A DNA stretch of 64,000 nt from Methanofollis aquaemaris (lineage in GTDB: Archaea; Halobacteriota; Methanomicrobia; Methanomicrobiales; Methanofollaceae), in the NCBI RefSeq assembly GCF_017357525.1, contig NZ_CP036172.1, forward strand, positions 1,090,561 through 1,154,560. The letters run 5' to 3'. Positions 40,175 to 63,864 of this stretch are shown piece after piece. A model generated the notes under the pieces. The model saw only the letters and a list, made by a program, of their open reading frames with translations, was not told where the DNA came from and searched no databases. Every line of letters starts with the position of its first letter. Within the stretch, counting starts at the first letter, position 1. Made by a program: the position numbers and the translations under genes.

Positions 40175-41209
40175 ATGCGGGGGGAAGTCAATCTTGAACG
40201 CCGGGCCATCTCTCTTCTTTCAGCCGTCTTGAGCCCTTCAGGTGCGTGCGACGCGTACCGAAACCTTCGGAGCGGTCTCGGAGGCGGGACAACGATCTAT
40301 ACCTTCCACCGCGTGGGCCCCCAGCGTCATGACTGGCTTATCCCCACCATGGAGACCGCCGAGTTCGAGCGGACGGTTCGATGGCTTGCCGAACACCACC
40401 GCATCCTCCCTCTCAGCGAGGTCGTGAAAGCCCTCAGGGAGGGGCGGGAACTGCCCGAAGGCACCGCCGCGGTCACCTTCGACGACGGTTACCAGGACAT
40501 CCACACCCATGCCTGGCCGGTGCTCCAGAGATACGGGGTGCCGGCCACGGTCTTTCTCACCACCGGCCCCATCGACCGCCGGGAACTCTTCTGGTTCGAC
40601 CGGTTCAGGCACGTCATCCACACCACCGGGAAAACGAGATTCGAGGTGGAAGGACTCGGAGAGATCCCGCTCAGGACGCGGGACGAGCGGTTCAGGGCCG
40701 TCACGCTCATCGAACGAAACATCCTCAAGGTCGCCGACGAGGCCGAGAAACTCGCGTGCATCGGTGCGATCGAGGACGACCTCGACGTGGACCCGCCCGA
40801 GATCGGGGACGACTACATCCTCACCTGGGAGCAGGTGCGCGAGATGGGGCAGGACAGCGTCAGTTTCGGTTCCCACACGGTCACCCACCCGCAACTCACC
40901 CACATCCCTCTCAAGCAGGCGGCGAGGGAGATCAGGTGTTCGAAGGAGCGGATCGAGCGGGAGACCGGAAAAGAGATCCTCTTCTTCTCGTACCCCAACG
41001 GGGGCGCCGCCGACACCTCGGCGGAGATCGAAACTCTGGTCAGCGAGGCCGGGTACCTCTCGGCCTTCTGCGGGATACCGGGACCGGTCAGGGCCGGGAA
41101 CAACCTCTTCAGGCTCAACCGGATCTTCTCGGGCTGGGACTTCGACACCTTCAAGTTCTTCGGCTCCGGGGCGTTTGCCGACCTTGCCTGGTTCCATTTC
41201 AGACGGTGA
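40175..41209 (+). CDS. Polysaccharide deacetylase (NodB-type)
   Basis: The 344-aa protein has the NodB catalytic signature: TFDDGYQD (101-108) and SHTVTHPQL with His234 and His238, plus YTFHRVGP at the N-terminus. It removes N- or O-acyl groups from a polysaccharide by a metal-dependent mechanism. There is no clear signal peptide or membrane helix, so its substrate may be a cytoplasmic glycan precursor. It precedes a GNAT-like gene by 6 bases and converges on an ACP-ligase operon, suggesting surface glycan tailoring. Confidence 0.88.
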   Translation: MRGEVNLERRAISLLSAVLSPSGACDAYRNLRSGLGGGTTIYTFHRVGPQRHDWLIPTMETAEFERTVRWLAEHHRILPLSEVVKALREGRELPEGTAAVTFDDGYQDIHTHAWPVLQRYGVPATVFLTTGPIDRRELFWFDRFRHVIHTTGKTRFEVEGLGEIPLRTRDERFRAVTLIERNILKVADEAEKLACIGAIEDDLDVDPPEIGDDYILTWEQVREMGQDSVSFGSHTVTHPQLTHIPLKQAAREIRCSKERIERETGKEILFFSYPNGGAADTSAEIETLVSEAGYLSAFCGIPGPVRAGNNLFRLNRIFSGWDFDTFKFFGSGAFADLAWFHFRR

Positions 41210-41215
41210 TGCATC

Positions 41216-42283
41216 ATGAATGTGCGGACTATTCAAACCGATGAGTATGAAGGCCTTGCGACCTTCCTTGCAACGCAGGTCGAAGCCGACCCGGCTGATC
41301 TCTGGATGCGCCGGTTTACGATGTGGTGGGACGAGAACCCCGCGATGGACGAGACGGTTCCGCGAGGGTGGATGATCGAGGACGACGACCATGAGGTCGC
41401 CGGGTTCCTGGGCAACATCCCGGTGCCCTTCTGGGTGGACGGCAAAGACGCCCTTGCCCGCGCCGCCTCATCCTGGTATGTCCGCTCCGAGGTGCGCGGG
41501 GTGCTCGGGCTCCAGTTGAACATCGCCTACTCGCGCCAGAAAGACGCCGACCTCTTCATCAGGACGACCCCGAACGAACTGGTCCAGGCGATGTTGCCGC
41601 GCCTGGGGTTCACCAGGATCCCGTTCCCCGCCGGCGGCCGGGAGTACCTCTCGGTCTTCGACTACGGGGGGGCGGCGGCGCTGTACGGGGCGAGTCCTGG
41701 AGCGGGGGGAACAAAACGGACCCTCTCCTCGATCGCCCGCGGCCCGCTCTCCGCGGTCTCGCCGTACCTGAGGAAAAAAAATGGTGTCGCCCCCGGCGCA
41801 TGGGAGGTCTGCACCGGGTGCGGGGAGGAGTTCGACGCACTCTGGGAAGCGCACCGCACGCCGGGCACCGCCTCGGTGGCGCGGGACGCAAAGACTCTGG
41901 AGTGGCTCTACTTCTCCGAGACCGTCGCCGGGAAGAGGATGGTCGTCGCATGCCGGGACGACGAGGGGGCGCTGAACGGTTACTGCGCCTTCGACCTGCT
42001 CACCCCGTACGGCGCCGGGGTGCGGGTGCTCCTCCTCCGCGACGCCTTTCTCCCCGACCGGGCGAGCGCCCGGACGGCGGTCGCCGCAGGCAAAGCGCTT
42101 GCCGAGGAGAAAAAAGCTGCCACCGTCGCCTTCTGGCCGGCGTCGCCCGAGATGGAGGAGGTGCTCAGGGCCGAGACCACCACCTCCAGACCGATCGACT
42201 ACAGTTACTTCTACCGCTGGGGCAGGGCCGGGCCGGCCGGGCTCCTCCCCTCGACCGTCGACCCCGACCGCGGGACGCTGTAA
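41216..42283 (+). CDS. GNAT/FemAB-like acyltransferase-family protein
   Basis: The 355-aa protein has a tandem GNAT-like layout: an N-terminal half (MNVRTIQTDEYEGL ... VRSEVRGVLGLQLNIAY) and a C-terminal half (YCAFDLLTPYGAGVRVLLLRDAFLPD). Such proteins transfer acyl or aminoacyl groups; FemAB relatives act on cell-wall precursors. It is co-oriented with the deacetylase by 6 bases and faces the ACP/ligase genes 66 bases away. The donor could be an acyl-ACP made by that operon. That is inference; donor and acceptor are unknown. Confidence 0.65.
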   Translation: MNVRTIQTDEYEGLATFLATQVEADPADLWMRRFTMWWDENPAMDETVPRGWMIEDDDHEVAGFLGNIPVPFWVDGKDALARAASSWYVRSEVRGVLGLQLNIAYSRQKDADLFIRTTPNELVQAMLPRLGFTRIPFPAGGREYLSVFDYGGAAALYGASPGAGGTKRTLSSIARGPLSAVSPYLRKKNGVAPGAWEVCTGCGEEFDALWEAHRTPGTASVARDAKTLEWLYFSETVAGKRMVVACRDDEGALNGYCAFDLLTPYGAGVRVLLLRDAFLPDRASARTAVAAGKALAEEKKAATVAFWPASPEMEEVLRAETTTSRPIDYSYFYRWGRAGPAGLLPSTVDPDRGTL

Positions 42284-42349
42284 CCGTTCTCACGTTTCCA
42301 CCGAACCACCGGGACGGCGACAGAGACGGGAAGGCCGAGAGCGGATCGG

Positions 42350-43897
42350 TCAGAGGATGGTGCCGTCCCCTGCCTCTCCTCGTCCGTGGATCGGTCCGAT
42401 CTCCTCGTACCCTCCCACCTCCTCCCCGGCCCGGAGAGCGGCGACCGCCGCCTTCAGCCTGATCAGGTCCACCTTGTCCGAGGCATTGAGGGGCATCGAC
42501 TCCGCAAAGACCACTGCCTTTGGCACCTTGTACGACGGGAGGGTGGTCTGGCAGAGGTACATGATCTCGTCGCGAAGCACGCCTGAAGGTTCTCCGACCG
42601 CCTGGACGACGGCGATCGCCGCCTCGCCCATCAGTTCGTCGGGCACCGCAATGACCGCGGTCTCGCTCACCGTCTCCAGAGTGTTGATGAGGTCTTCCAC
42701 CTCCCTCGGGGTGATCCGGTGCCCCGCCGACTTGATGACCGTGTTGCCGCGGCCCTTGAAATAGACATACCCGTCCTCGTCGACGGTGGCGAGGTCGCCG
42801 GTGTACAGTCGGCCGTCTTTCAGTTTTGCCGCGGTCCCCACCGGATCCCTGAAGTAGCCCTGCATGGGAGTCCTGCTCAGCACCGTGATCTCGCCGATCT
42901 CGCCGGGGTCCACCGGCCTGCCGTCCGGGCGCAGGACTTCCAGGGTGACGCCGGGCATCCCCTTGCCCAGCGACCCGATCTTCTCGTGGATCAGGCGCGG
43001 GTCGAGGACCGAGATCCTGGCCGTCGCCTCGGTGGCGCCATAGTAGATGTAGAGATCTTTCTCAGGGAAGGCGCCGGTGATCGTTCTGACGTACTTCTCC
43101 TCCAGGTGCCCCCCGCCGCAGGTCATGTAGCGGAGGCTCGGGAGCGCGGCCTTGAGGAAGGGAGTGCGGTGGATGAGGATCTGGTAGGTGCTCGGCACGC
43201 CGTAGATCCCGGTGCACCCGTAATCATCGATCTCTAAGATGACGGTCCCGAGGAAGATCGCGGTGTGCAGGACCACGCTCCCGCCGACCCTGAGATGGGT
43301 GTGCATGACCGAGACGCCGTAGCAGTAGGTGAAGGGGAGGACCGCACACGCCCGGTCATCCTCGGTGAGGTGCATCACTTCGAGGATCGCCTCGCTGTTG
43401 GTCACCAGGTTCCAGTGGGAGATCATCACCCCCTTCTTCTCCCCGGTGCTCCCCGAGGTGAAGAGGATCTGGGCCGTCTCGTCGTCCGCAGTCTCGACCA
43501 CCCATTCCTCGTCGGTCGCCGGGAGGGCGGCAAGGTCGGCCTCGGAGAAGAGCGGCCACCCGTCGCGGATCTTGGAGCGGTACTTCTCCTGGACACAGCA
43601 GCACCTGAATTTGCAGAGGTCGCCGATCTTTTCGAGCTGGTCTTTTGCGACCCTCGTCTCGACGAGCACCGCGATGTTCCCGCTCTTCATTGCGGCAAGG
43701 TAGCAGAGGGTGAAAAAAAGACTGTTCTCCGCGAGGACCAGGATCCGTTTCCCCCTCCCGTAAGTCCGCCCGAAGTGCCGGGCCAGGGCGTTCACCTTCC
43801 GGAAGAGTTCGCGGTGGGTGATCGTCTCTCTGGGCCCGGCGATAAAGAGGGTGTCGCGTTCCCGGCTGTTTTCCAGGAGATAGTCGACAAAGTTCAT
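42350..43897 (-). CDS. Acyl-CoA/acyl-ACP ligase, AMP-forming
   Basis: The 515-aa adenylating enzyme activates a carboxylic acid as an acyl-AMP and then loads a thiol. The ATP-binding loop LFTSGSTGEKKG (145-156), YYGATEATARIS, YTGDLATVDEDGYVYFKGR and the C-terminal Lys in NASDKVDL are all present. The substrate is unknown. The gene follows the ACP by a short overlap (ACP stop and ligase start overlap), so the ligase probably loads that carrier. Confidence 0.88.
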   Translation of the reverse strand: MNFVDYLLENSRERDTLFIAGPRETITHRELFRKVNALARHFGRTYGRGKRILVLAENSLFFTLCYLAAMKSGNIAVLVETRVAKDQLEKIGDLCKFRCCCVQEKYRSKIRDGWPLFSEADLAALPATDEEWVVETADDETAQILFTSGSTGEKKGVMISHWNLVTNSEAILEVMHLTEDDRACAVLPFTYCYGVSVMHTHLRVGGSVVLHTAIFLGTVILEIDDYGCTGIYGVPSTYQILIHRTPFLKAALPSLRYMTCGGGHLEEKYVRTITGAFPEKDLYIYYGATEATARISVLDPRLIHEKIGSLGKGMPGVTLEVLRPDGRPVDPGEIGEITVLSRTPMQGYFRDPVGTAAKLKDGRLYTGDLATVDEDGYVYFKGRGNTVIKSAGHRITPREVEDLINTLETVSETAVIAVPDELMGEAAIAVVQAVGEPSGVLRDEIMYLCQTTLPSYKVPKAVVFAESMPLNASDKVDLIRLKAAVAALRAGEEVGGYEEIGPIHGRGEAGDGTIL

Positions 43898-44145
43898 TCC
43901 TCTCCCTCCTCGAGATGGGAGAAGACGACCCCTTTCACCCTGCCGAAGTCCTCCATCTCGACGATCTCCTCCATCTCCAGGGTGATCCCGAAGGCCTCCT
44001 CCAGGGCCGCCACCAGTTCGAGATGCTTGAGCGAGTCCCAGAGTTCGTACGAGTTGTAACTGATATCGTCAGAGAGGTCTGATTCTCGAACACCGATCAC
44101 GTCGCAGAAGATTTTTTCTATTCTCTGTTGAGGCCCCTTTTCCAT
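43894..44145 (-). CDS. Acyl carrier protein
   Basis: The 83-aa acidic protein has the phosphopantetheine site WDSLKHLEL with Ser38, in a four-helix ACP pattern (KIFCDVIGVRE, LWDSLKHLELVAALEEAFG). It carries acyl groups as thioesters on 4'-phosphopantetheine. Archaea lack the usual fatty-acid synthase, so a discrete ACP is noteworthy. GGAGGGGGACGG precedes the ATG, which is inside the end of the acpS gene. The ligase starts 4 bases before its stop, so all three are coupled. Confidence 0.85.
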   Translation of the reverse strand: MEKGPQQRIEKIFCDVIGVRESDLSDDISYNSYELWDSLKHLELVAALEEAFGITLEMEEIVEMEDFGRVKGVVFSHLEEGEE

Positions 44146-44510
44146 CCGTCCCCCTCCGTCGCAAGCGCACAGGCGACCGCAATGTCCCCATCGTGCGAAA
44201 GACTGACGAGGACAGTGACCATACCGGCATCCCGACATATTAAAGTAACGGAGGGCACCCCTGACGGCCCGTTTGTGATCTCGATTTCGTTCATTGCAAT
44301 GCCGTCATACCCGATGGAGGAGAGGGCTTTGGTCACCGCTTCTTTGCCGGCGAACCTGGCCGCGAGGTGGGGGGCCGGATGCTCCCTGGAGAAGCAGTAG
44401 GCGATCTCCTTCGCGGTGAAGACGCGTTCGAGGAAGTGGCGGTCGTGTTCGAGGGACTTCTCTTTGAAACGTGGGATCGAGACAACATCGGTGCCGATGC
44501 CGGGTATCAT
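44118..44510 (-). CDS. acpS: Holo-[acyl-carrier-protein] synthase, AcpS type
   Basis: The 130-aa protein has the AcpS motifs GIGTDVVSIPRF (with Asp8), RFAGKEAVTKAL (with Glu57) and SLSHDGDIAVACAL. It transfers 4'-phosphopantetheine from CoA to the ACP. I chose the ATG at 44510 (MIPGIGTD) because the family begins there; the frame is open further up. It heads the acpS-ACP-ligase operon. Upstream near 44645-44690 the sequence TGAAACGCT occurs twice on the minus strand. Confidence 0.85.
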   Translation of the reverse strand: MIPGIGTDVVSIPRFKEKSLEHDRHFLERVFTAKEIAYCFSREHPAPHLAARFAGKEAVTKALSSIGYDGIAMNEIEITNGPSGVPSVTLICRDAGMVTVLVSLSHDGDIAVACALATEGDGWKRGLNRE

Positions 44511-44715
44511 CAGGCCGGAAATATCACGCACGGGCATATAGATGTTGTGGACAGCGGGATGGTGGGGGAGCGGGACGGCAAACGGTCGGAGAGGCGCGAG
44601 AGGGAAGGTAGGCGAACAGAGAGTCATGACAACTGGATGAGCGTTTCATCAGAGTCAAATCTTTAGAAATAGCGTTTCAGTTCTCCTGTCACTACCAAAA
44701 AAAGGTGGTGAGTCT

Positions 44716-47700
44716 CTACCTCATCCTCCGGACCACCACCGCGACGAGGAGGAGGGCGAGCGCCCCGCCGACGACGAGCAGCATGGAGGGGAAGGGCGTC
44801 GGGGTATTGGGTGGGGTCGGGCCTGCCGCCGCCGGTGGCGTCGTCAGCGTCTCGACCGTATCCGCCGGTGCGGCAGGGGTCATCACCGGGGTCTCAACCG
44901 CTGAGGGTTCGCCGCCGATCGCGAAGAGCGAGAAGCCCGGACTCCTGGCCGAGAAGTGCCAGGAAGTCTCGTCCTCCCTGACGACCTCGGTGGAGAGGGG
45001 CTGCCACTCGCCGTCGTGGTAGCGGTACAGCACCACGTCGGCCGGATCGAGGCCGTGCTCATCGAGCCACGTCTTCGGGACGCTGAAGGAGAAGACGGCG
45101 CCCTCGATCGCATCGTCGGTCGTGCGGTAAAGCGTCACCTCGGCGTACTCGTAGACCGACCCGGCCGGGGCATCGACGTCGCCGGGCCGACTGGTCTTTC
45201 CGACGGTGATCATGACCTCCGGGATCTCTTCTCCGGCCGTCACCCTGACTTCGTAGATGGCCGAGTTCGGGAGCGTCAGCGAGGCGGTCCCGCCGGCCGG
45301 GATCTTCCCTGCCGACCCGGACGAGGCGGTCGAGCGCCCGCCGGCAGAGGTGGTCGAACGGCCTTCGTTGGATCGGGGAGTAGAGACAATAACAGTCTGT
45401 TCTGCAGTCGATGCACCGTAGGCGTTGGAGACCGTCAACCGCACCGTGTAGGTGCCTGCCTGCTCGTAACGGTGGGCGGGATTTAGATCGGTCGAGGTGG
45501 CGCCGTCGCCGAAGTCCCATGACCGGGCGCTGATATCGCCGGTCGACCTGTCGGTGAAGGCGACGTCCAGCGGGGCGTTGCCTTTGACCGGCGAGACGTT
45601 AAAGTCGGCGGCCGGGGGTGCGAGGACGGTGACGGTCCTGGTGGTGGCGTTGGTGGCCTCGCCGGTGCTCACCGTGAGGGTGAGCAGGTAGGTGCCGGGG
45701 GTATCGTAGGTGACGCTCCGGTTGATCTCGGCCGGTGTGGTGCCATTGATCGCCCGGCCGTCGCCGAGGTCGAGGCGCCACCTTTCAGGCGTACCGGCAC
45801 TGCCGACGTTGACGCCGACGGTGAAGGGAGCGTTGCCTTCGGTGGCCGAGAGGTAGAGGACGGGTTCGGGACCGGGGCCTGGGCCAGGATCGGGCATGCC
45901 GACGACGATCTCAACCGTGCGGACGAGGCGGACGAGGTCGCTCCCTTCTCCCCATCCCGCGGTCAGGGTGGCGATGTACGTCCCGGCCTTCTCGTAGGTG
46001 TGAAACGGCCAGTAGCACGGGCTCGATTCGTTGCCCTCGCCGAAGGTCCAGACGATGCGGTCGGGTGCGGGGCCGGTGAACCCGGTGTCGAAGGAGACAT
46101 TGAGGGGAGCGGAACCCTGCCTTGGCGCGGCATAGCCCCGGACATCGACCTCACCGACCTCGACGGTCACCCTTTCGGTCGTGCCGGCGGAGATCTCGAC
46201 CACTGCCCGTCCGTAGGTCGTCGCCCCGACCACCTCGACGGTGTGGGTGCCGGCCGGGAGGAAGAAGGCGCCCGAGGGCGGGGTGTGGGCGGCGACGGCC
46301 GTCGCACGGGTGGCGAAGAAGTCGGCGGTCCGGGTGGTGTTCACCCCGTCGACATAGACGAATCCACCGAGAGCGGAGGCGCGGATCAGCGCCGTCCCGC
46401 GGTCCCCGTCGTACATCAGCGGGAGGTGGTCGGTGCCGAGGCCGTCGATAGTCAGGTTCTGGTCGCAGATGCCGTCGAAGTCGGCGTCTGTTCCCCATTC
46501 TGAGATATTCTGGTTGGGGTCACGCAGCCAGAGGTTGCCGCCCAGATACGGACCGCCCGCGATGTTCGTGCCAGGAGTGCGGGTGGTGTTGAGGACGGCG
46601 GTGGAACCATATGCATGAATGTTGGTGGGGTTGTCAAAGCGACAGTTGGCAATTACCCCATTTTCGCACAGCCCAATGTATGCGCCGCCGCCCCCAACAA
46701 GTCTTGCGGTATTGTTGGTGAAGGTAGTGGTGGTGATGGTGGCGTTATGGCAACTATGTACGTATGCGCCGCCGCCCCCAAGTCTTGCGGTGTTGTTGGT
46801 GAAGGTGGTGGTGGTAAGCGTGGCAGCATCGCACAACGAGAAGCATGCCCCACCGCCGTACCACATCGCCGTGTTGTTGGTGAAGGAGGTGGTGGTGACC
46901 GTGGCGTTATGGCAACTATGTACGTATGCGCCGCCGCTGTTCGCCAGTGCGCTGTTGCCGGTGAACACCGTCCCCTCCACCTGGAGGTCGTCGACATACT
47001 CGGCGTAGAGCGCACCGCCGGATGCATAGGACGGAGAGGATCCATGGATCCAGCTCACCTCGTTGCCGGCAAAGGTGCAGTCGGTGATGGTGAGGCGCAC
47101 CAGGGGGTTTTCAGCGGTCGCACCTGCGGCATGGATCCCGGCCCCGTTGCCGCTCTCCAGCCGGTTCCCGGAGATGTTGAGGCCGCAAAACGTTGCGTTG
47201 TCCGCAGTGACGGTGAAGGCCGGGGCAGTGCGCGATGTGTTGGTGATGAGCGGCCGGACAGGCGAGCCCTCCCAGCGTCGAATGGTCACGTTCGGTTTGT
47301 CGATGATAAACCCGCCGTTGTAGGTGTGACCCTCCACGCCCCAGATATGGACGGTGTCGCCTTCACCGAGATCGGTGATCTCCAGGAGACTGGTGAAGTT
47401 CCCGCCGCCTACGAACCTGGAGACATACCAGTTCATCGGGTGGATAATCTCAGCGAGGTCGAAAGTGAGGGGATCGTTCTCGCCGGGGATGATGGTGACC
47501 GACTTCACGCTGGGGACGCAGCCCTCCTTCTGCACCGAAATAAGGTGGTCCCCGACCGGGAGGTAGAAGGTATTGTTCGCGGTGCGGCTGGTGTTCGTGC
47601 CGTCGACGAAGACGAAGGCGCCGTCGGCAGAGGGCGTGGCGTTGATCGGGACCGTCCCGCCGTACACCAGCGGCAGATGGTCGGTGCCGAGGCCCTGGAT

Positions 47701-50700
47701 GGTCAGTGCCTGGTCGCAGATGCCGTCGAAGTCGGCGTCTGTTCCCCATTCTGAGATATTCTGGTTGGGGTCACGCAGCCAGAGGTTGCCGCCGAGGTAC
47801 GGACCGCCCCCGATGTTCGTGCCAGGAGTGCGGGTGGTGTTGAGGACAGCGGTGGAACCATATGCATAGATGTTGGTGGGGTTGTCGAAGCGGCAGTTGG
47901 CGAGCATGACGCCCGTACATCCTCCAAAGCCCGCACCGCCGCCGCGCCATGCGATGTTATTGAGGAAGGTGTTGTTGGTGATAGTAGCGGCATCGCACGA
48001 AGAGAATCGTGCCCCGCCGCCGTCCGCCCATGCAGTGTTGCCGGAGAATTTGGTGTCGGTGAGCGTGGCGGCATCGCAGTTCTCGAAATATGCCCCGGCA
48101 CCCTGGCCTGCGTGATTGGTGGTGAGCGTGGCGTTGATACACACCGCGTTCCTCGAATCACTGAAGTATATCCCGCCGCCCTCCTCCATTGCGGTGTTGT
48201 CGGTGAAGGCGGTGGAAGTGAGCGTGGCGTTCTCGCACATGTTGATGTATGCCCCGCCGCCGGGCCCTCTTGCACTGTTGCCGGTGAACGTCGTCCCCTT
48301 CACCAGGAGGTCGTCGACATATTCGGCAGAGACCGCACCGCCGCATGTCGTGTCCCCTTCAACCGCGTTCCCGGCAAAGGTGCAGTCAATGATGGTGAGG
48401 CCCGTCAGAGGGGTTCCCGGATCTCCGATGGCATTGATCCCGGCCCCGTTGCCGCTCTCCAGCCGGTTCCCGGAGATGTTGAGGTCGCGGAAGGTGGCGT
48501 TGTCCGCAGTGACGGTGAAGGTCGGGGCGGTGTGTGAGGTGTTGGTGATGAGCGGCTGGACGGGCGATCCCTCCCAGCGTTGTACGGTGACGTTCGGTGC
48601 GTCGATGACGATTCCGCCCTCATAGGCATAGTTCTCCACCCCCCAGAGGTGAATGATGTCGCCTGTGCCGATCCCGGGGATCGCGGAGATGTTCGTGTAG
48701 TTCCCTATGCCACCTGGCGGGGAGATGTACCAGTTCATCGGGTGCGTGATCTCGGTGAGGTCGAAGGTGAGGGGATCGTTCTCGCCAGGGACAATGGTGA
48801 CCGACTTCTCGCCGGGGAGATAGCCATTCTTATGTACCGAAATAAGGTGGTCCCCGACCGGCAGGTAGAAGGTATTGTTCGCGGTGCGGGCGGTGTTCGT
48901 GCCGTCGACGAAGACGAAGGCGCCGTCGGCAGAGGGAGTGGCGTTGATCGGGATCGTCCCGCCGTACACCAGCGGGAGATGGTCGATACCGAAGATTCTG
49001 TTGCCGTCGGCTTCGCTGCCAAAGTGGCTGTTGTTGATGGTCAGTGCCTGGTCGCAGATGCCGTCGAAGTCGGCGTCCGCACACCACTCAGAGATGTTCT
49101 GTTCTGGATCCTGGAGCCAGAGGTTGCCGCCGAGGTACGGACCACCCTCGATGTTCGTGCCGGGAGTGCGGGTGGTGTTGAGGACGGCGGTGGATTTAGA
49201 TGCATAGATGTTGGTGGGGTTGTCGAGGTGGCAGTTGGTGAGCATGACGGCCGTACACTCCTCAAAGCCTGCCCCGCCGCCCTGGCCTGCGGTGTTGTTG
49301 GCAAATATGGTGGTGGTGAGCATGACATCTGTACACTCCGAGAAGCATGCCCCGCCGCCTTCCTGGCTGGCGGTGTTGTTGGTGAAGAGGGAAGAGACGA
49401 TGGCCGCGGCATCGCACCCCCCGAAGTATGCGCCGCCACCGAAGAGTGCGCTGTTGTCGGTGAAGGCGGTGGAGGTGATGGTGGCATTCTCGCACCCGCC
49501 GATGTTTGCGCCGCCTCCGTGTCGTGCGCTGTTGTCGGTGAAAGAGGCGCTGGTGATGGTGAGATTATCACATCCCCCAAAGATTGCACCGCCGCCGGAC
49601 CACTTTGTTGCTGTGTTGCCGGTGAAGGTGGTGTTGGTGAGGATGGCATTCGCGCACCCACTGAAGCGTGCCCCACCGCCGTCCGACCACGCCTTGTTGT
49701 TGAGGAATGAGGTGTTGGTGAGAGTGAGGGCGTCGCAGTGCTCGAAGTCTGCCCCACCGTAACTCGCCAGTACCTCGTTGTCGATGAAGACGGTGTCGGT
49801 GAAGGTGGCGGCGTCGCAGTGCTCGAAGCGTGCCCCGCCGGCGGATCCCCATACGTAGTTATCGAAGAATGTGACGTTGGTAAACGCCGCGTTCCTCGAC
49901 TCATTGAAGTATGCCCCGCCACCATAGGGGGCCATTGCGCGGTTGGAGATGAAGCCGGTGTCGGTGAACGTGGCGTTCTCACATCTCCATACATATGCCC
50001 CGCCGCCAGGCCCCCCTGCTACAAAGTTGCCGCGGAATGCCGTCCCCTCTACCTGGAGGTCGTCGACATACTCGGTGTAGAACGCACCGCCGCGTGTAGT
50101 GTTCCTTTCAACCGCGTTCCCGGCAAAGGTGCAGTCGGTGATAGTGAGGCACTTCAGAGGGGTTCCTGGATCTCCGGCGGCATGGATCCCGGCGCCGCGG
50201 CTATTATCATACTTCAACCGGTTCCCCGAGATGTCGAGGTCGAGGAAGGTGGCGTTGTCCGCGGTGACGGTGAAGGTCGGGGCGGTGTGCGAGGTGTTGG
50301 TGATGAGCGGCTGGACGGGCGATCCCTCCCAGCGTTGTACGGTGACATTCAGTGCGTCGATGGTGATCCCTCCCTCGTAGGTGTGGTTCTCCGCGCCCCA
50401 GACGTGGACGGTGTCGCCCTCGCCGAGATCGGTGATCGCCAGGAGACCGGTGATGTTCTCATACGAGTGGGGGTTGCCGGTGCCGGGTACCGGGGAGACG
50501 TACCAGTCTCTCGGGTGCGTGCCCGGAGGGGGGTCGGCGAGGGCAACCACCGGAGCGGCCGCCGGGGCGGGTGCGGCGGTGACGTTGATATCGACCGCGG
50601 TGGTGTTTGTGACAGACGCGCTCTCGTTGACGGCGGTGAGGCCGACGACGTGGGTACCGGGCTCAAGGAACGTGTGGGTGAAGTCCGACTCGTTCCCGGC

Positions 50701-50994
50701 CGCCGCGACGCCGTCGACCGTCCAGGTCCAGAGGTCGACCGCAAGACCCGCGGCCGCACCCGAGAACCTGACCGTGAGCGGTACCGGACCGGTGGGCGGG
50801 TCGGCGGCGAGCGCGAGGTTCAACGCCGGGGTGGTGGCGTTCGTGATGTTCGCAGGCGGTTCGGGTGGCGCAAGTGTTTCAAACAGCCCTGCACCCTCCT
50901 CGCCACCGGTGACCGGCAGGACGAGACAGACCAGGACCGCGAGCAGTACTCCGAAAAATACTATATTTCTTCGAATAGGGGGGACTTTTTCCAT
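44716..50994 (-). CDS. Giant surface protein with PKD, three beta-helix/PEGA units and C-terminal anchor, 2092 aa
   Basis: A signal peptide (NIVFFGVLLAVLVCLVLPVTGG) is followed by a PKD domain, then three long units. Each unit starts HPxxWYVS, holds a right-handed beta-helix of GGGAYF...C..A.LT.T.FT.N.A repeats, then a DxDxDGICD calcium-type loop and a PEGA-like domain (FVFVDGTNT...LPVGDHLISV). Two PKD-type domains, a PGF-pre-PGF-like domain (SAGKIPAGG ... FSLFAIGG), a Thr/Pro linker, TPFP, one helix and RRMR end it. GAGGAGG lies before the ATG. It is likely a cell-surface adhesin or glycan-binding protein. Confidence 0.9.
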   Translation of the reverse strand: MEKVPPIRRNIVFFGVLLAVLVCLVLPVTGGEEGAGLFETLAPPEPPANITNATTPALNLALAADPPTGPVPLTVRFSGAAAGLAVDLWTWTVDGVAAAGNESDFTHTFLEPGTHVVGLTAVNESASVTNTTAVDINVTAAPAPAAAPVVALADPPPGTHPRDWYVSPVPGTGNPHSYENITGLLAITDLGEGDTVHVWGAENHTYEGGITIDALNVTVQRWEGSPVQPLITNTSHTAPTFTVTADNATFLDLDISGNRLKYDNSRGAGIHAAGDPGTPLKCLTITDCTFAGNAVERNTTRGGAFYTEYVDDLQVEGTAFRGNFVAGGPGGGAYVWRCENATFTDTGFISNRAMAPYGGGAYFNESRNAAFTNVTFFDNYVWGSAGGARFEHCDAATFTDTVFIDNEVLASYGGADFEHCDALTLTNTSFLNNKAWSDGGGARFSGCANAILTNTTFTGNTATKWSGGGAIFGGCDNLTITSASFTDNSARHGGGANIGGCENATITSTAFTDNSALFGGGAYFGGCDAAAIVSSLFTNNTASQEGGGACFSECTDVMLTTTIFANNTAGQGGGAGFEECTAVMLTNCHLDNPTNIYASKSTAVLNTTRTPGTNIEGGPYLGGNLWLQDPEQNISEWCADADFDGICDQALTINNSHFGSEADGNRIFGIDHLPLVYGGTIPINATPSADGAFVFVDGTNTARTANNTFYLPVGDHLISVHKNGYLPGEKSVTIVPGENDPLTFDLTEITHPMNWYISPPGGIGNYTNISAIPGIGTGDIIHLWGVENYAYEGGIVIDAPNVTVQRWEGSPVQPLITNTSHTAPTFTVTADNATFRDLNISGNRLESGNGAGINAIGDPGTPLTGLTIIDCTFAGNAVEGDTTCGGAVSAEYVDDLLVKGTTFTGNSARGPGGGAYINMCENATLTSTAFTDNTAMEEGGGIYFSDSRNAVCINATLTTNHAGQGAGAYFENCDAATLTDTKFSGNTAWADGGGARFSSCDAATITNNTFLNNIAWRGGGAGFGGCTGVMLANCRFDNPTNIYAYGSTAVLNTTRTPGTNIGGGPYLGGNLWLRDPNQNISEWGTDADFDGICDQALTIQGLGTDHLPLVYGGTVPINATPSADGAFVFVDGTNTSRTANNTFYLPVGDHLISVQKEGCVPSVKSVTIIPGENDPLTFDLAEIIHPMNWYVSRFVGGGNFTSLLEITDLGEGDTVHIWGVEGHTYNGGFIIDKPNVTIRRWEGSPVRPLITNTSRTAPAFTVTADNATFCGLNISGNRLESGNGAGIHAAGATAENPLVRLTITDCTFAGNEVSWIHGSSPSYASGGALYAEYVDDLQVEGTVFTGNSALANSGGAYVHSCHNATVTTTSFTNNTAMWYGGGACFSLCDAATLTTTTFTNNTARLGGGGAYVHSCHNATITTTTFTNNTARLVGGGGAYIGLCENGVIANCRFDNPTNIHAYGSTAVLNTTRTPGTNIAGGPYLGGNLWLRDPNQNISEWGTDADFDGICDQNLTIDGLGTDHLPLMYDGDRGTALIRASALGGFVYVDGVNTTRTADFFATRATAVAAHTPPSGAFFLPAGTHTVEVVGATTYGRAVVEISAGTTERVTVEVGEVDVRGYAAPRQGSAPLNVSFDTGFTGPAPDRIVWTFGEGNESSPCYWPFHTYEKAGTYIATLTAGWGEGSDLVRLVRTVEIVVGMPDPGPGPGPEPVLYLSATEGNAPFTVGVNVGSAGTPERWRLDLGDGRAINGTTPAEINRSVTYDTPGTYLLTLTVSTGEATNATTRTVTVLAPPAADFNVSPVKGNAPLDVAFTDRSTGDISARSWDFGDGATSTDLNPAHRYEQAGTYTVRLTVSNAYGASTAEQTVIVSTPRSNEGRSTTSAGGRSTASSGSAGKIPAGGTASLTLPNSAIYEVRVTAGEEIPEVMITVGKTSRPGDVDAPAGSVYEYAEVTLYRTTDDAIEGAVFSFSVPKTWLDEHGLDPADVVLYRYHDGEWQPLSTEVVREDETSWHFSARSPGFSLFAIGGEPSAVETPVMTPAAPADTVETLTTPPAAAGPTPPNTPTPFPSMLLVVGGALALLLVAVVVRRMR

Positions 50995-51090
50995 TTCAGA
51001 CCTCCTCGGGAACCGAACGCCGACCTCATGGGATAGGGGGTGAGGCCGTTTCCGTCGGTGCAGGATTATTCGCTGCCTTTAATATCAAGT

Positions 51091-51103
51091 ATTATATATA
51101 TTT
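51091..51103 (-). promoter_or_regulatory. Promoter of the 2092-aa surface gene
   Basis: The minus strand has an A-rich BRE followed by ATATATATAAT, 97 bases before the ATG. The same layout precedes the two paralogues at 97 and 98 bases. Confidence 0.65.
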
Positions 51104-51211
51104 TTGTTTTTAACTCCGCGGGCCGCGAAAGAACGAATAAGGCATAGATCTGGAAGAACAGACGTGCGAGAGATTCGGGGATCACAGAGGCCGGCGAAAT
51201 GAGCGCAGCAT

Positions 51212-51360
51212 GGAGGGGGCCGCCGTCGATCTTCGGAAGAGAGGGGAAGACGGAGAGATGGCCCTAAAAAAAGTGGAGGGTTCTATCTCGTCCTCCATAC
51301 CGCGACGGCGACGAGGAGGAGGACGATCGCCCCGCCGACGACGAGCAGCATCGTGGGGAA
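51212..51360. repeat. Near-identical intergenic/3'-end duplicate (copy 1)
   Basis: Bases 51212-51360 match 55272-55420 with a constant offset of 4060 and only a few substitutions, covering the spacer, the oligo-T terminator (seven A on the plus strand near 51267) and the last codons of the surface gene. Confidence 0.8.
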
Positions 51361-54300
51361 GGGGGTTTGTGTCCCGGCGGGCGTCGGGCCTGCGGGCAGC
51401 GACGTCACGAATGTCTCGACGGTCTCCACCGGTGCGGCGGGCGTCATCGCCGGCGTCGATACCGGCGAAGGGTCGCCGCCGATCGCAAAGAGGGAGAAGC
51501 CCGGACTCCTGGCCGAGAAGTGCCAGGCGGTCCCGTCCTCACCGGTGACCCCGGTGGGGAGGGCGACCCACTCACCGTCATGGTAGCGGTACAACACCAC
51601 GTCGGCCGGATCGAGCCCGTGCTCATCGAACCACGTCTTCGGGACGCTGAAGGAGAAGACGACGCCCTCGATCGCATTGTCGGTCGTGTGATAGATGGTC
51701 ACCTCGGCGTACTCGTAGACCGACCCGGCCGGGGCATCGACGCCGGAGGGACGACCGGTCGTCCCGATGGTGACCAGAATCTTCTGGATCTCTTCTCCGG
51801 CGGTCACCCTGACTTCATAGATGCCGGAGTTCGGGAGCATGAGCGAGGCGGTGCCGCCGGCCGGAATCTTCCCTGCCGACCCGGCCGAGTCGGTCGAGCG
51901 GCCGCCATGGGAACCGGGAGACGAAGGAGTCGAGGGTTCGAGGACGGTGATGTTCACGGTGCGGACGAGGGTGACGAGGTCGCTCTTCTCTCCCCACGCG
52001 GCGGTGAGCGTGGCGGTGTAGGTTCCGGCCTTCTCGTAGGTGTGGTGAGGCCAGTAGCACGGGCTCGATTCGTTGCCGTCGCCGAAGGTCCAGGTGTGGC
52101 GGTCGGACTCGGGATCGGGGAACCAGGTGTCGAAGGAGACGTCGAGGGGTGCGAAGCCCTGCCCCGGTATCGCGTAGCCCCGGATCTCGACCTCGCTCAC
52201 CTCGACGGTCACCCGTTCGGTCGCACCGGCGGAGAGGTCGACCGAAGCCCGCCCGTAGGTCGTCGCCCCGACCACCTCGACCGTGTGGTTCCCGACCGTG
52301 AGATAGAAGGCGTCGTTCGCGGTGCGGGTGGTGTTCATACCGTCGACGAAGACGAAAGCGCCGTCGGCGGACGTGGCGTTGATCACCACCGTGCCGCCGC
52401 CGTGCATCAGCGGGAGGAAGTCGGTGCCGAAGAGGAATGCGGGGTCTCTGTTGGCGATGTTCTGCGCTTCGTCGCAGATGCCGTCGAAGTCTGCGTCCGT
52501 GCCCCACTCCGAGATGTTCTGTTTGGGATCCTGGAGCCAGAGGTTGCCGCCGAGGTACGGGCCGCCGGCGATGTTCGCGCCCGGAGTGCGGGCGTCGTTG
52601 AAGACGGCGCCGAAGGACATGTGTGCAAAGATGTTGGTGGGGTTGTCGAAGCGGCAGTCGGTGACCCTGGCAGCACGGGAATCCTCGAAGTATGCCCCGC
52701 CGCCATATTCCGCGGCGGTGTTGCGGTCGAAGGCGGTGCCGGTGAGCGTGGCGGCAGGGGAAGAGAGGAAATATGCCCCGCCGCCATGTTCCGCAGCGGT
52801 GTTGCCGGTGACATTGGTGTCGGCGAGCGTGGCGCGACGGCTAAAATAGAAGTATGCGCCGCCGCCGTCGGTTGCGGTGTTGTTGGTGAAGGTGGTGGCG
52901 GTGAGCGCGGCGTCGGATGAAAGGGTGAAGTCTGCCCCGCCGCCTCCGAATCGTGCGCTGTTGCCGATGAAGGAGGTGCCGGTGAGCGTGACGACATCGC
53001 ATCCCGTGAAGTCCGCCCCACCGCCCCAGTCTGCGCTGTTGCCGGAGAACGCCGTCCCCTCCATCAGGATGTCGTCGACGTATCGGGCGGAGAGCGCACC
53101 GCCGCATGCGGATGTCCCGTTCGCCTCGTTCCCGACGAAGGTGCAGTCGGCGACGGTGAGGCGCTTCAGGTGGTTTCCTGAATCCCCGGTGACATTGATC
53201 CCGGCGCCGCGGCTGTTGTCATCGTTCAACCGGTTGCCCGAGATGTTGAGGCCGCGGAAGGTGGCGTTGTCGGCGGTGACGGTGAAGGCGGGGGCGGTGT
53301 GCGAGGTGTTGGTGATGAGCGGTCGGACGGGCGATCCCTCCCACCGCTGAATGGTCACGTCGGGTTTGTCGATGACGACCCCGCCCTCGTAGATGTGGCC
53401 CTCGACACCCCGGAGGTGGACGGTGTCGCCCGCGTCGAGATCGGGGATCGCGGAGATGTTCGTGAAATTGCCGTCGCCCGGCACCGGGGAGACATACCAG
53501 TCCATCGGGTGGATGATCTCGGTGAGGTCGAAGGCGAGGGGATCGTTCGCGCCGGCGGTGACAGTGATCCGCTTCTCGCCGGGGAGATACCCGTCCTTCT
53601 TCACAAAGATCGTGTGCTCCCCGACCGGGAGGTAGAAGGCGTCGTTCGCGGTGCGGGTGGTGTTCGCGCCGTCGACGAAGACGAAGGCGTCGTCGGCGGG
53701 CGTGGCGTTGATCTCCACCGTGCCGCCGTGCACCAGCGGGAGGGCGTCGGTGCCGAAGACTCTGCCGGCGTTCCTATTGATGGTCAGCGCTCCGTCGCAG
53801 ATGCCGTCGAAGTCGGCGTCCGCACACCACTCCGAAATGTTCTGCGCGGGGTCCTGGAGCCAGAGGTTGCCGCCGAGGTACGGCCCGCCCGCGATGTTCG
53901 TGCCGGGAGTGCGGACGGTGTTGAGGGTGGTGGCGTCGGAGTTTTCTGCAAAGATGTTGGTGGGGTTGTCGAAGCGGCAGTTGGTGAGCGTGGCTTCACC
54001 GCAGTCCACGAAGTATGCCCCGCCGCCGCCCTGTCCGGCGGTGTTGTTGGTGAAGGTGGTGGCGGTGAGCGTGGCGGCATTGAAATTCTGGAAATACGCC
54101 CCGCCGCCGCCGGATGCGCTGTTGCCAGTGAAGGTGGTGCCGGTGAGCGTGGCGGCATAGCAGGTTATGAAGTAGGCCCCGCCGCCGTAGTATTGTGCGG
54201 TGTTGTTGGTGAAGGTGGTGCCGGTGAGCCTGGCGGCATTGCACGAGGAGAAGTAGGCCCCGCCGCCGTAGTATTGTGCGGTGTTGTTGGTGAAGGTGGT

Positions 54301-55056
54301 GCCGGTGAGCCTGGCGGCATGGCACAAGGAGAAGTAGGCCCCGCCGCCGCACCAATTCGCGGTGTTGTTGGTGAACGTCGTCCCCTCCACCAGGAGGGCG
54401 TCGACGTACAGGGCAGAGAGCGCACCGCCGTCTGTATCCGTCCCCGTCACCTTGTTCCCGGCAAAGGTGCAGTTCGTTATGGTGAGACGCTGGAGGTGGG
54501 TGTTGAAATCTGTACTGGTGGCGTTGATCCCGGCACCGCGGACATCTGCACCATCCAGGTGGTTGCCGGAGATGTTGAGGTTGCGGAAGGTGGCGTTGTC
54601 CGCGATGACGGTGAAGGCCGCCGCGGTGTGGTTGGTGCTGGTGATGAGCGGTCGGACGGGCGATCCCTCCCACCGCTGAATGGTCACGTCGGGTTTGTCG
54701 ATGACGATCCCGCCCTCGTACGTATGCCCGGCCGCGCCCCAGATGTGGACGGTGTCGCCCTCGCCGAGGTCGGTGAGGTTGAGAAGGCCGGTGATGTTCG
54801 CATACGAGTGGGGGTTGCCGTCGCCCGGCACCGGGGAGACGTACCAGTCCCGCGGGTGAGTGCCCGCGGGGGCGGCCATCAGAGCAGGTGCGGCGGCGAG
54901 CGAGAGGTCGAGCGCCGGGGCGGTGGCGTTCGTGAGGTTCAGAGGCGGCCCTGCGTCGTCTTCGCCGCCGGCGACCGGGAGGACGAGACAGACCAGGACC
55001 GCGAGCAGGACTACATAAAAGAGTCTATTTCTCCGAATAGGGGGGATTTTTTCCAT
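51283..55056 (-). CDS. Giant surface protein, paralogue with two beta-helix/PEGA units, 1257 aa
   Basis: The same plan as the 2092-aa gene but shorter: signal peptide (NRLFYVVLLAVLVCLVLPVAGG), no N-terminal PKD, two beta-helix units (starts near 54845 and 53505), then a PEGA-like and PKD-like region, the PGF-pre-PGF-like domain and the anchor (TPFPTMLLVVGGAIVLLLVAVAVWRTR). Two of its beta-helix repeats are almost identical at DNA level (54170-54331). GAGGAGG lies before the ATG. The promoter, leader and 3' end match those of its neighbours, so it arose by tandem duplication. Confidence 0.9.
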   Translation of the reverse strand: MEKIPPIRRNRLFYVVLLAVLVCLVLPVAGGEDDAGPPLNLTNATAPALDLSLAAAPALMAAPAGTHPRDWYVSPVPGDGNPHSYANITGLLNLTDLGEGDTVHIWGAAGHTYEGGIVIDKPDVTIQRWEGSPVRPLITSTNHTAAAFTVIADNATFRNLNISGNHLDGADVRGAGINATSTDFNTHLQRLTITNCTFAGNKVTGTDTDGGALSALYVDALLVEGTTFTNNTANWCGGGAYFSLCHAARLTGTTFTNNTAQYYGGGAYFSSCNAARLTGTTFTNNTAQYYGGGAYFITCYAATLTGTTFTGNSASGGGGAYFQNFNAATLTATTFTNNTAGQGGGGAYFVDCGEATLTNCRFDNPTNIFAENSDATTLNTVRTPGTNIAGGPYLGGNLWLQDPAQNISEWCADADFDGICDGALTINRNAGRVFGTDALPLVHGGTVEINATPADDAFVFVDGANTTRTANDAFYLPVGEHTIFVKKDGYLPGEKRITVTAGANDPLAFDLTEIIHPMDWYVSPVPGDGNFTNISAIPDLDAGDTVHLRGVEGHIYEGGVVIDKPDVTIQRWEGSPVRPLITNTSHTAPAFTVTADNATFRGLNISGNRLNDDNSRGAGINVTGDSGNHLKRLTVADCTFVGNEANGTSACGGALSARYVDDILMEGTAFSGNSADWGGGADFTGCDVVTLTGTSFIGNSARFGGGGADFTLSSDAALTATTFTNNTATDGGGAYFYFSRRATLADTNVTGNTAAEHGGGAYFLSSPAATLTGTAFDRNTAAEYGGGAYFEDSRAARVTDCRFDNPTNIFAHMSFGAVFNDARTPGANIAGGPYLGGNLWLQDPKQNISEWGTDADFDGICDEAQNIANRDPAFLFGTDFLPLMHGGGTVVINATSADGAFVFVDGMNTTRTANDAFYLTVGNHTVEVVGATTYGRASVDLSAGATERVTVEVSEVEIRGYAIPGQGFAPLDVSFDTWFPDPESDRHTWTFGDGNESSPCYWPHHTYEKAGTYTATLTAAWGEKSDLVTLVRTVNITVLEPSTPSSPGSHGGRSTDSAGSAGKIPAGGTASLMLPNSGIYEVRVTAGEEIQKILVTIGTTGRPSGVDAPAGSVYEYAEVTIYHTTDNAIEGVVFSFSVPKTWFDEHGLDPADVVLYRYHDGEWVALPTGVTGEDGTAWHFSARSPGFSLFAIGGDPSPVSTPAMTPAAPVETVETFVTSLPAGPTPAGTQTPFPTMLLVVGGAIVLLLVAVAVWRTR
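54170..54331. repeat. Tandem 81-bp repeat (27-aa beta-helix rung)
   Basis: Two consecutive 81-base copies, 54170-54250 and 54251-54331, differ at only a few positions. Each encodes one GGGAYFS.C.AARLTGTTFTNN rung. A third, diverged copy follows. Confidence 0.85.
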
Positions 55057-55152
55057 TTCAAACCTCCTCGGGGACCGAACGCCGACATCATGAGATATGA
55101 GGTGGTTTCGTTTCCGTCGGCGAACAAAGATTCGCTTAGTTGAATTTTTGGC

Positions 55153-55163
55153 ATTATATATGT
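55153..55163 (-). promoter_or_regulatory. Promoter of the 1257-aa surface gene
   Basis: CATATATAAT with an A-rich BRE (AAAACAAAAA) lies 97 bases before the ATG; the leader also carries the conserved CGGTCCCCGAGGAGG stretch. Confidence 0.65.
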
Positions 55164-55271
55164 TTTTGTTTTGAACTTCGACGACTACAAAAGAACGAAT
55201 GGCGCATCGATCAGGAGAAAGGACGTGCGTGAGATCCGGGGATCACGGAGGCCGGCAAAAGGACCGGAGCA

Positions 55272-55420
55272 AGGAGGGGGCCGCCGTCGATCTTCGGAAG
55301 AGAGGGGAAGACGGAGAGATGGCCCTAAAAAAAGTGGAGGGTTCTATCTCGTCCTCCATACCGCGACGGCGACGAGGAGGAGGAGGATCGCCCCGCCGAC
55401 GACGAGCAGCATCGTGGGGA
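55272..55420. repeat. Near-identical intergenic/3'-end duplicate (copy 2)
   Basis: This is the partner of 51212-51360, covering the spacer, terminator and last codons of the 2807-aa gene. It shows that the duplication includes non-coding DNA. Confidence 0.8.
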
Positions 55421-58400
55421 AGGGCGTCGGGGTATCGGCCGGCGTCGGGCCTGCGGGCGGCGACGTCACGAATGTCTCGACGGTCTCCGCCGCTGCGGCG
55501 GGCGTCATCACCGGGGTCGAGACCGCGGAGGGTTCGCCGCCGATCGCAAAGAGGAAGAAGCCCGGACTCCTGGCCGAAAAGTGCCGGGAGGTCTCGTCCT
55601 CCCCGTCGACGCTGGTCGGGAGAGGCTGCCACCCGTCGTCGTCGTAGCGGTACAGCGCCACGTCGGCGGGTTCGAGGCCGTGCTCCTCGAGCCATGTCTT
55701 CGGGACGCCGAAGGAGACGACGATCTCCTCGATCGCGTCCTCGGTCGTGTGGTAGAGCGTCACCTCGTCGTACTCGTAGACCGTGCCCGCGGGTGCGTCG
55801 ACGCCTGAGGGCCGACCGGTCTTCTTGATGGTGATCATGACCTTCGGGATATCTTCTCCGGCGGTCACCCTGACCTCGTAGATGCCCGTGCCCTTCATCT
55901 TCATGGAGGCGCTCTCTCCGGCCGGGATCGACCCGGTCGACCCTGCCGAGATGGGTGAATGGCCGCTGTTGGATTCAGAGGACGGAGTGGTCGGGGGTGC
56001 GTGGACGGTAACGGTCCCGGTGGTGATGGTGGTAAACGCGCCGGTGCTGACGGTGAGGACGAGCGGGTAGGTGCCGGCGTTCTCGTAGGTGACGCTCCGG
56101 TTGATCTCGGCCGGACTTGCGCCCTCGACCGTCCGGCCGTCGCCGAGGTCGAGGTGCCATCTCTCAGGCATCCCATCGCCGCTGACATTGATGCCGAGGG
56201 TGAAGGGGGCGTTGCCTTCGACGGCCGAGAGGTGGAGGGAGGGTGCGGGCATGCCGACGGTGAGGTTCACGGTGCGGACGAGGGTGACGAGGTCGCTCCC
56301 CTCGCCCCACGCCGCCGTCAGGGTGGCGGTGTACCGCCCGGCCTTCTCGTAGGTGTGAGACGGCCAGTAGCACGGGCTCGATTCGTTGTCGTCGCCGAAG
56401 GTCCAGGTGAGGCGGTCGGGTGCGGGGTCGGTGAACCCGGTGTCGAAGGTGACGTTGAGGGGTGCGAGGCCCTGCCGGGGTATCGCGTAGCCCTGGATCT
56501 CGACCTCGCCGACCTCGACGATCACCCGTTCGGTCGCACCGGCCGGGATGTTGACCGTTGCCCGTCCGTAGGTCGTCGCCCCGACGATCTCGACGGTGTG
56601 GTTGCCGGTCGGGAGGAAGAAGGCATCCGAAGGCGGGGTGGGTGCGGCGGCGGCCCTCGCCATCGCACGGGGTGCGGGGGCGGGGAAGTGGTCGGCGGTG
56701 CGGGTGGTGTTTGTGCCGTCGATATGCACGAACCCGCCGTGAGCGGAGGCGCGGACGAGCACGGTGCCGCGGTCCCCGCCGGTCGCGAGCGGGAGGGCGT
56801 CGGTGCCGAGGCCGGGGATGGTCGACGGCTGGTCGCAGATGCCGTCGCAGTCGATGTCAGGCCCCCATTCGGAGATGTTCTGGGCGGGATCGGTGAGCCA
56901 GAGGTTGCCGCCGAGGAACGGCCCGCCCGCGATGTTCGTGCCGCGGGTGCGGGTGGCGTTGAGGGCGCCGGTGGAGTTTTCTGCAAAGATGTTGGCGGGG
57001 TTCTCGAAGCGGCAGTCGGCGACGAAGGTGTCGTTGCACCAGGAGAGATGGGTTCCGCCGCCGACGGGTGCGTCGTTCCCGGCGAACACCGTCCTCTCCA
57101 CCGAGAGGTTGTCGACCGCCCTGGCAGAGAGCGCACCGCCGCATCCGTCTGCCGCGTTCCCGGTGAAGGTGCAGTCGGCGATGGCGAAGTGCTGTAAGGG
57201 AACTTTGCTGGATCCGCAATGCCCGGTGACGTTGATCGCACCGCCCGCATGGGCGGCGCGGTTGCCGGTGAAGGCGGAGGCGTTGAGCGTGGCGTCATCG
57301 CACTGATAGAAGTATGCACCGCCGCCGTCGTCCGCACTGTTCCCGTCAAAGGAGAGGTCGGTGAGCATGGCGGCATCGCAGTCCACCAAGTATGCTCCGC
57401 CGCCGAACTTCTCCGCGGTGTTGTTGACGAAGGTGGCGCCGGCGAGCACGGCCGCGGGGAGGGCGGCGCGATAAGATCCCGCAAAGTATGCGCCGCCGCC
57501 GAATCCTGCGGAGTTGTCGGTGAAGGCGGTGCCGGTGAGCGTGGCGCAGGAGCCTTCGGCAATGTAAAAGCGTGCGCCGCCGCCCTGGTTGGCGGCGGTG
57601 TTGTCGGTGAAGGCGGTGCCGGCGAGCGTGACGGGTCCATGTGAATATAAGAAGTCCGCCCCGCCGCCGCAACTGGAGGCGCGGTTGCCGGTGACGGTGG
57701 TGTCGGTGAGCACGGAGTCGTTGCAGAAGAGGAACTGTACCCCCCCGCCGAATCGTGCGGCGTTGTCGGTGAAGGCGGTGTCGGCGAGCACGGTGTCGTT
57801 GCAGGAGAGGAACCGTGCCCCGCCGCCGTACCTGGTGGCGTTGTTCCCGGTGAACGCCGTCCTCTCGACCAGGAGGTCGTCGACGTACCCGGCGGAGAGC
57901 GCACCGCCGCCTGCCCCTGTCCCGTTCACCGTGTTCCCGGCGAAGGTGCAGTCGGCGATGGTGAGGCGCTTCAGATGGTCTGTTTCACTGCCGGTGGCGT
58001 TGATCCCGGCGCCCAGGCCTTCGTCGTCGTCCAGGCAGTTGCCCGAGATGTCGAGGCCGCGGAAGGTGGCGTTGTTTGCGGTGACGGTGAAGGCCGGTGC
58101 GGTGTGGTTGGTGCTGGTGATGAGCGGTTTGACGGGCGAGCCTTCCCACTGTCGGATGGTTACGTCGGAGGCGTTGATGACGATCCCGCCCTCGTACGCG
58201 TGGCCGGCCACGCCCCAGATGTGGACGGTGTCGCCCTCGCCGATCTCGGGGATCTCCTGGAGACTGCTGAAGTTCCCGCTGATCGTCGAGACGTACCAGT
58301 CTATCGGGTGTGTGCTCTCCATGAGGTCGAACGTGAGGGGGTCGTTCTCGCCGGCGGTGACGTTGATGTTCTGCTCACAGGTGAAGAAACCCTCCTTGTG

Positions 58401-63767: not shown

Positions 63768-63864
63768 TTCAAGGCCTCCTCGGGAATCGAACGCCAGCAT
63801 CATCTCTCAGGAGACAAAGGCGTTCCCGTCGGGGGGTTCGGATTCTCGCGATTGAATTTTAGAT

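Follow-up and report, generated by a model that had tools for sequence, protein, structure and literature searches.

A five-gene locus encoding an acyl carrier protein

We analyzed a 64,000-nucleotide stretch (the window) of the Methanofollis aquaemaris genome, a single contig of 2.75 Mb. The window carries five genes, located where the first-pass annotation had placed them from sequence alone, in two convergent operons separated by 66 bases (Table 1). On the minus strand, the genes for a holo-ACP synthase (AcpS), an acyl carrier protein (ACP) and an AMP-forming ligase form the tightly packed operon that it described: the AcpS and ACP genes share 28 bases, and the ACP stop overlaps the ligase start by 4. 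On the facing strand, a deacetylase gene ends 6 bases before the start of an acyltransferase gene of the GNAT type. The two operons overlap in genomes G006 and G007.

Table 1. Features of the locus, in window coordinates
Feature	Position	Strand	Evidence
CE4/NodB-type polysaccharide deacetylase, 344 aa	40175..41209	+	PF01522 E 4.6e-23; motifs; 79-85% identical orthologues
Tandem-GNAT N-acyltransferase, 355 aa, Eis2/NMT-like predicted fold	41216..42283	+	AF2 model, Foldseek, VIA-align; homologues beside ligase/ACP genes
AMP-forming acyl ligase (ANL superfamily), proposed acyl-ACP ligase, 515 aa	42350..43897	-	PF00501 E 1.4e-59; PF13193
Acyl carrier protein, 83 aa, Ser38 in WDSLKHLEL	43894..44145	-	PF00550 E 8.6e-9
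AcpS (holo-ACP synthase), ~130 aa	44118..44510 (start approximate; longer form possible from in-frame ATG at 44627)	-	PF01648 E 6.8e-17; TIGR00516 above cut-off
Three giant repeat-rich surface proteins	44716-63803		TPFP(S/T)-hydrophobic-R tail

Hydropathy analysis revealed no export signal or clear membrane span in any of the five proteins; a neighboring 2092-aa protein is strongly hydrophobic at its ends. Next to the block lie the genes of three giant, repeat-rich surface proteins, each of which finishes in a TPFP(S/T)-hydrophobic-R tail. The one that was scanned contains NosD, PKD, PEGA and PGF-pre-PGF domains, with no PGF-CTERM match among those listed. When the translations of the window were read by eye, we recognized neither a glycosyltransferase nor an archaeosortase gene, the latter as already annotated.

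The carrier protein, its activating enzyme and the ligase

The carrier protein is of the WDSL type, has a net charge of -15 and scores 36 bits against PF00550 (cut-off 20.8). Its WDS motif is invariant among six homologues, and Ser38 is conserved. AcpS exceeds the cut-offs of both PF01648 (61.9 vs 25 bits) and TIGR00516 (68.9 vs 59.8 bits) and conserves residues D9, E58 and K62. Since one AcpS/phosphopantetheinyl transferase (PPTase) and one ACP were detected in the genome, the two are likely partners of each other.

Archaeal ACPs have been described from a few unrelated species only, as acquisitions from bacteria by transfer (PMC3533463), and the literature that we searched offered no role for them. 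The initial view that ACP and AcpS are rare in archaea was overstated: in an order-wide survey, 44 of 232 Methanomicrobiales genomes carry AcpS. Near some of these AcpS genes lie very large adenylation-domain proteins that resemble peptide synthetases (L188:10558-18396, L186:10477-16433). A role of the M. aquaemaris ACP in a fatty-acid synthase was rejected because the genome holds no convincing ketoacyl synthase, the sole match covering 52 residues at 21.5 bits.

In the ligase, the P-loop TSGSTG is nearly invariant and the C-terminal Lys475 invariant across 23 homologues. Alignment with an NRPS adenylation domain places Cys192 at the position of the usual amino-acid-binding Asp, which is weak evidence that an alpha-amino acid may be a less likely substrate. 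Phylogenetically, the Methanofollis ligases adjoin those of genomes G097-G099 with moderate support (89/93), this group being nested among Lux-type ligases, and other GNAT-linked ligases fall on separate branches. A search of the contig collection with the ligase returned one Methanofollis contig and otherwise generic ligases only (~25-32% identity); a search of plasmids returned loci with an ACP gene directly before the ligase, mostly in polysaccharide clusters.

The deacetylase and the tandem GNAT

The deacetylase scores 82 bits against PF01522 (cut-off 23.1) and retains intact CE4 motifs, TFDDG (101-105) and HTVTH (234-238). Its 355-aa partner matches no Pfam or NCBIfam family, NodA included, while a homologue (L162) passes the PF00583 cut-off. 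An AlphaFold2 model (pLDDT 83) predicts two GNAT domains in one chain, with structural matches spanning residues 1-353 of the model. Foldseek relates the model to Eis2 (E 2.6e-13), and the best whole-model matches are N-myristoyltransferases (NMTs; VIA-align Z ~21, rmsd ~4, some 310-319 residues aligned). Eis is an aminoglycoside acetyltransferase. Both predicted fold relatives, Eis2 and the N-myristoyltransferases, act on amines, a shared fold that may hint at function and does not prove it. Of the original label "GNAT/FemAB-like", the GNAT part thus stands, and we correct the whole to tandem GNAT, Eis/NMT-like: FemAB gave no match in the Pfam and NCBIfam scans and was not among the listed structural matches, which by itself does not exclude it.

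The block is inherited as a unit in Methanofollis

The five genes are present all or none, in 4 of 12 genomes of the genus. Close orthologues of AcpS (at least 76% identity), the ligase and the deacetylase (at least 79%) and the GNAT co-occur in four genomes and are missing from the other eight of the genus. Internal gene order is constant among the four, and the neighboring moeA/TIGR00725 genes lie on the opposite side in G006. With dN/dS values of 0.04-0.34 for its genes, the block is under purifying selection. It had been proposed that the genes form one shared system, and that co-occurrence across archaeal genomes would be the check; the block is kept as a unit in the genus, and combinations of its parts are found again in distantly related archaea, as detailed below.

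Recurrence of the acyltransferase with carrier genes in other archaea

GNAT homologues were found in 14 of the 232 Methanomicrobiales genomes, and in 12 of these 14 they adjoin ligase and/or ACP genes, across several ligase lineages. In the four Methanofollis genomes the GNAT belongs to the block with ligase, ACP and AcpS. In G097-G099 it directly precedes a ligase, and a group of NadE-like, ACP and PP-loop genes lies nearby; in G098 an Sfp-type PPTase gene was seen after the ligase. G212 carries a GNAT-ligase pair; in G051 the GNAT closes an AcpS-ACP-ligase-LuxE-LuxC-FabG-transketolase operon; in G114 the order is ligase-ACP-GNAT, with nucleotide-sugar genes beside it; and in G182 and G216 the neighbors are NadE-like, ACP and PP-loop genes. 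A carrier gene near the GNAT homologue is absent in G044, and none was recognized in G218.

The deacetylase follows the same distribution. Close homologues (E<1e-70) occur in 7 of 232 genomes, exactly the 7 with a close GNAT, although these represent two lineages only and the counts are not independent. In G098 and G099 the two genes lie 27-28 kb apart on one contig, separated in G099 by a surface-protein and glycosyltransferase region. In g65, a different family of the same phylum that was detected later in the analysis, the deacetylase gene directly neighbors the GNAT gene in G280 and G317, and one or two genes lie between them in G514 and G442; a second GNAT copy in G280 (L236) lacks deacetylase and carrier neighbors. 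The ~15 kb after the G514 pair also carries FabG, NadE-like, PP-loop, ligase, ACP and Sfp-like PPTase genes. The AcpS profile found no match in the g65 genomes, in a search run without a positive control, and the Sfp-like gene of G514 was recognized by reading. That an Sfp-type enzyme stands in for AcpS with the rest retained argues that carrier chemistry is what matters in the module.

Two further observations were made at these loci. The G442 GNAT gene (L237:9338-10465) contains one in-frame TAG where its relative L233 has Lys; this is a nonsense mutation or else a pyrrolysine codon, the latter provided that the organism uses that amino acid. A group of NadE-like, DltC-like ACP and WbuX-like PP-loop genes recurs in archaea (L162:12786-15508, L165:7011-9360, L170:1208-3581, L238:1285-5120) and is echoed by asnB-ACP-ligase-nadE on Shinella, Roseateles and Azospirillum plasmids; perhaps it forms an amide from an acyl group held on the carrier.

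Relation to Lux-type operons and bacterial glycan clusters

Most of the AcpS loci that we read are AcpS-ACP-ligase-LuxE-LuxC operons, fourteen in all when extra loci of G003 and G002 are counted. The majority of the fourteen include FabG and some a split transketolase; LuxE and LuxC were confirmed with Pfam for one. Related ACP-ligase operons sit among sugar genes. Besides the block, G003 has a complete AcpS-ACP-ligase-LuxE-LuxC-FabG operon, which is located in a polysaccharide region (L014:4721-9978). LuxC (PF05893) has no match in the M. aquaemaris genome (G000), G006 or G097-G099, and this, together with purifying selection, led us to reject the block as a degenerate Lux-type operon.

In bacteria, ACP, AMP ligase, LuxE, LuxC and FabG occur in the flagellin glycosylation islands of Aeromonas group II (PMC7874193) and of Enterobacteriaceae (PMC4875605), where the authors suggest a liposugar component (PMC7874193; PMC4875605). 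The islands share a dedicated ACP-ligase pair with the block, and their archaeal version is the AcpS-ACP-ligase-LuxE-LuxC-FabG operon of many Methanomicrobiales; the block, in contrast, lacks LuxE, LuxC and FabG and has a GNAT and a deacetylase instead.

The analogy to bacterial exopolysaccharide loci drawn at the outset was right in kind, and its best parallel lies in Azospirillum. A cluster of Azospirillum ramasamyi (NZ_CP029830.1) encodes glycosyltransferases, a polysaccharide deacetylase, ACP, ligase, asnB, nadE and a GNAT. This cluster and that of A. brasilense (NZ_CP059450.1) bring together, like the block, a deacetylase, an ACP, a class I adenylate-forming ligase and a GNAT, but they have additional asnB, nadE and glycosyltransferase genes and no AcpS in the stretch. 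The archaeal GNAT profile detects the Azospirillum GNAT at E 2e-6 in a small set, and hhalign indicates a weak homology between the two (probability 75%, E 2.6e-5); a tblastn search of plasmids with the archaeal GNAT gave no match. Our literature search found no paper on the function of the Azospirillum gene set.

The more specific link to exosortase-associated loci did not hold. These share with the block the gene kinds deacetylase, acyltransferase, ligase and ACP, and in Paludibaculum, alone among the bacterial ACP-ligase loci viewed, an EpsI gene is found close to a related ACP-ligase pair. Unlike them, the block has no sorting enzyme nearby and no recognized glycosyltransferase in the window, and its ligase scores 275.9 bits against the exosortase-associated model TIGR03098, more than 300 bits under the cut-off of 592. 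Searching up- and downstream for an archaeosortase, as had been advised, points the same way: the only TIGR04125 (archaeosortase A) match in the genome, at 757419-758186, lies ~373 kb from the block at ~1.13 Mb. No paper on the exosortase/ACP/FemAB gene set was found in the literature search.

Nod-factor synthesis (NodB, NodA, NodE/NodF) is the nearest worked-out logic for the block. There, NodB, a CE4 deacetylase, frees the amine of the terminal GlcNAc, to which the N-acyltransferase NodA attaches an acyl group taken from ACP (PMC5080398). The block likewise encodes a deacetylase, an ACP and an N-acyltransferase together, a shared way of working and not of family: it has no NodA-family match and neither NodC nor a ketoacyl synthase nearby, and an AMP ligase would load its ACP.

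A candidate module for N-acylation of a surface glycan

We propose, with a probability of about 0.65, that the block is a minimal ACP-dependent module for glycan de-N-acetylation and N-acylation, of which we infer the order of action, the amino-sugar acceptor and the ACP donor. AcpS would attach phosphopantetheine to Ser38 of ACP, and the ligase would convert a free carboxylic acid to an acyl-AMP and load it onto the carrier. A cytosolic deacetylase would remove the acetyl moiety of an N-acetylated sugar in a lipid-linked or nucleotide-bound glycan precursor, and the tandem GNAT would pass the acyl group from ACP to the freed amine prior to export. The first-pass suggestion that an acyl group is activated, held on ACP and passed to a surface glycan is the best reading. 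As the genome has neither LuxC nor a convincing ketoacyl synthase, the acid must arrive by another route; and as no glycosyltransferase was recognized in the window, the genes for the glycan must be elsewhere.

Several observations count against the module. GNATs usually take acyl-CoA, and ANL enzymes often produce it. NadE and either a PP-loop or an asnB gene are frequent in the distant parallels and missing from the block; the GNAT homologues of G044 and G218 have no nearby or recognized carrier gene, respectively; and the homology between the archaeal and Azospirillum GNATs is weak.

The steps may also not act in sequence on one amine. An unlikely alternative is that the GNAT targets an amino sugar that is produced elsewhere and carried on a nucleotide, similar to bacterial pathways for N-acylated amino sugars, with the deacetylase trimming another position or polymer. 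GNAT homologues that stand beside carrier genes with no deacetylase nearby (G114, G051), and the nucleotide-sugar genes of G114, fit this, but close homologues of the deacetylase and of the GNAT occur in exactly the same genomes, and in a distant family the two genes are neighbors. It is less probable still that the GNAT acylates a protein amine from ACP in the manner of an N-myristoyltransferase, perhaps on a surface protein, the deacetylase being independent. N-myristoyltransferases are its best whole-model structural matches, and giant surface proteins adjoin the block here and lie close by in G003, with two small genes between. In G006, however, they are ~9 kb off; the pairing of deacetylase and GNAT persists across archaeal lineages and Azospirillum exopolysaccharide clusters, and elsewhere the GNAT sits in nucleotide-sugar or glycosyltransferase clusters. 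Given this variable adjacency and five enzymes without export signals, we do not regard a connection of the block with the giant surface proteins as supported. Finally, we consider it very improbable that the ACP operon works in the synthesis of lipids, fatty acids or cofactors and lies near the deacetylase and GNAT genes by chance. Fatty-acid synthesis is the classical job of ACP and AcpS (PMC3533463), but the genome offers only the short ketoacyl synthase match and no LuxC, the block is gained or lost as a unit within the genus, and related ACP-ligase operons are surrounded by sugar genes.

De- and re-acylation by way of ACP is known in bacteria and unexpected in an archaeon without a fatty-acid synthase. 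Extending the glycan module beyond Methanofollis, we suggest only tentatively that archaea lacking fatty-acid synthase employ a dedicated ACP in making surface glycans whose amino sugars are N-acylated and possibly bear lipid, through a de-acetylate/re-acylate module that they share with exopolysaccharide clusters of bacteria and that has been put together anew several times, each with other PPTases and ligases. The block gives an archaeal ACP a concrete, testable role, the decoration of a surface glycan, and ties a hitherto uncharacterized tandem-GNAT family to carrier-protein chemistry. Its natural presence and absence among Methanofollis species offers a ready comparison.
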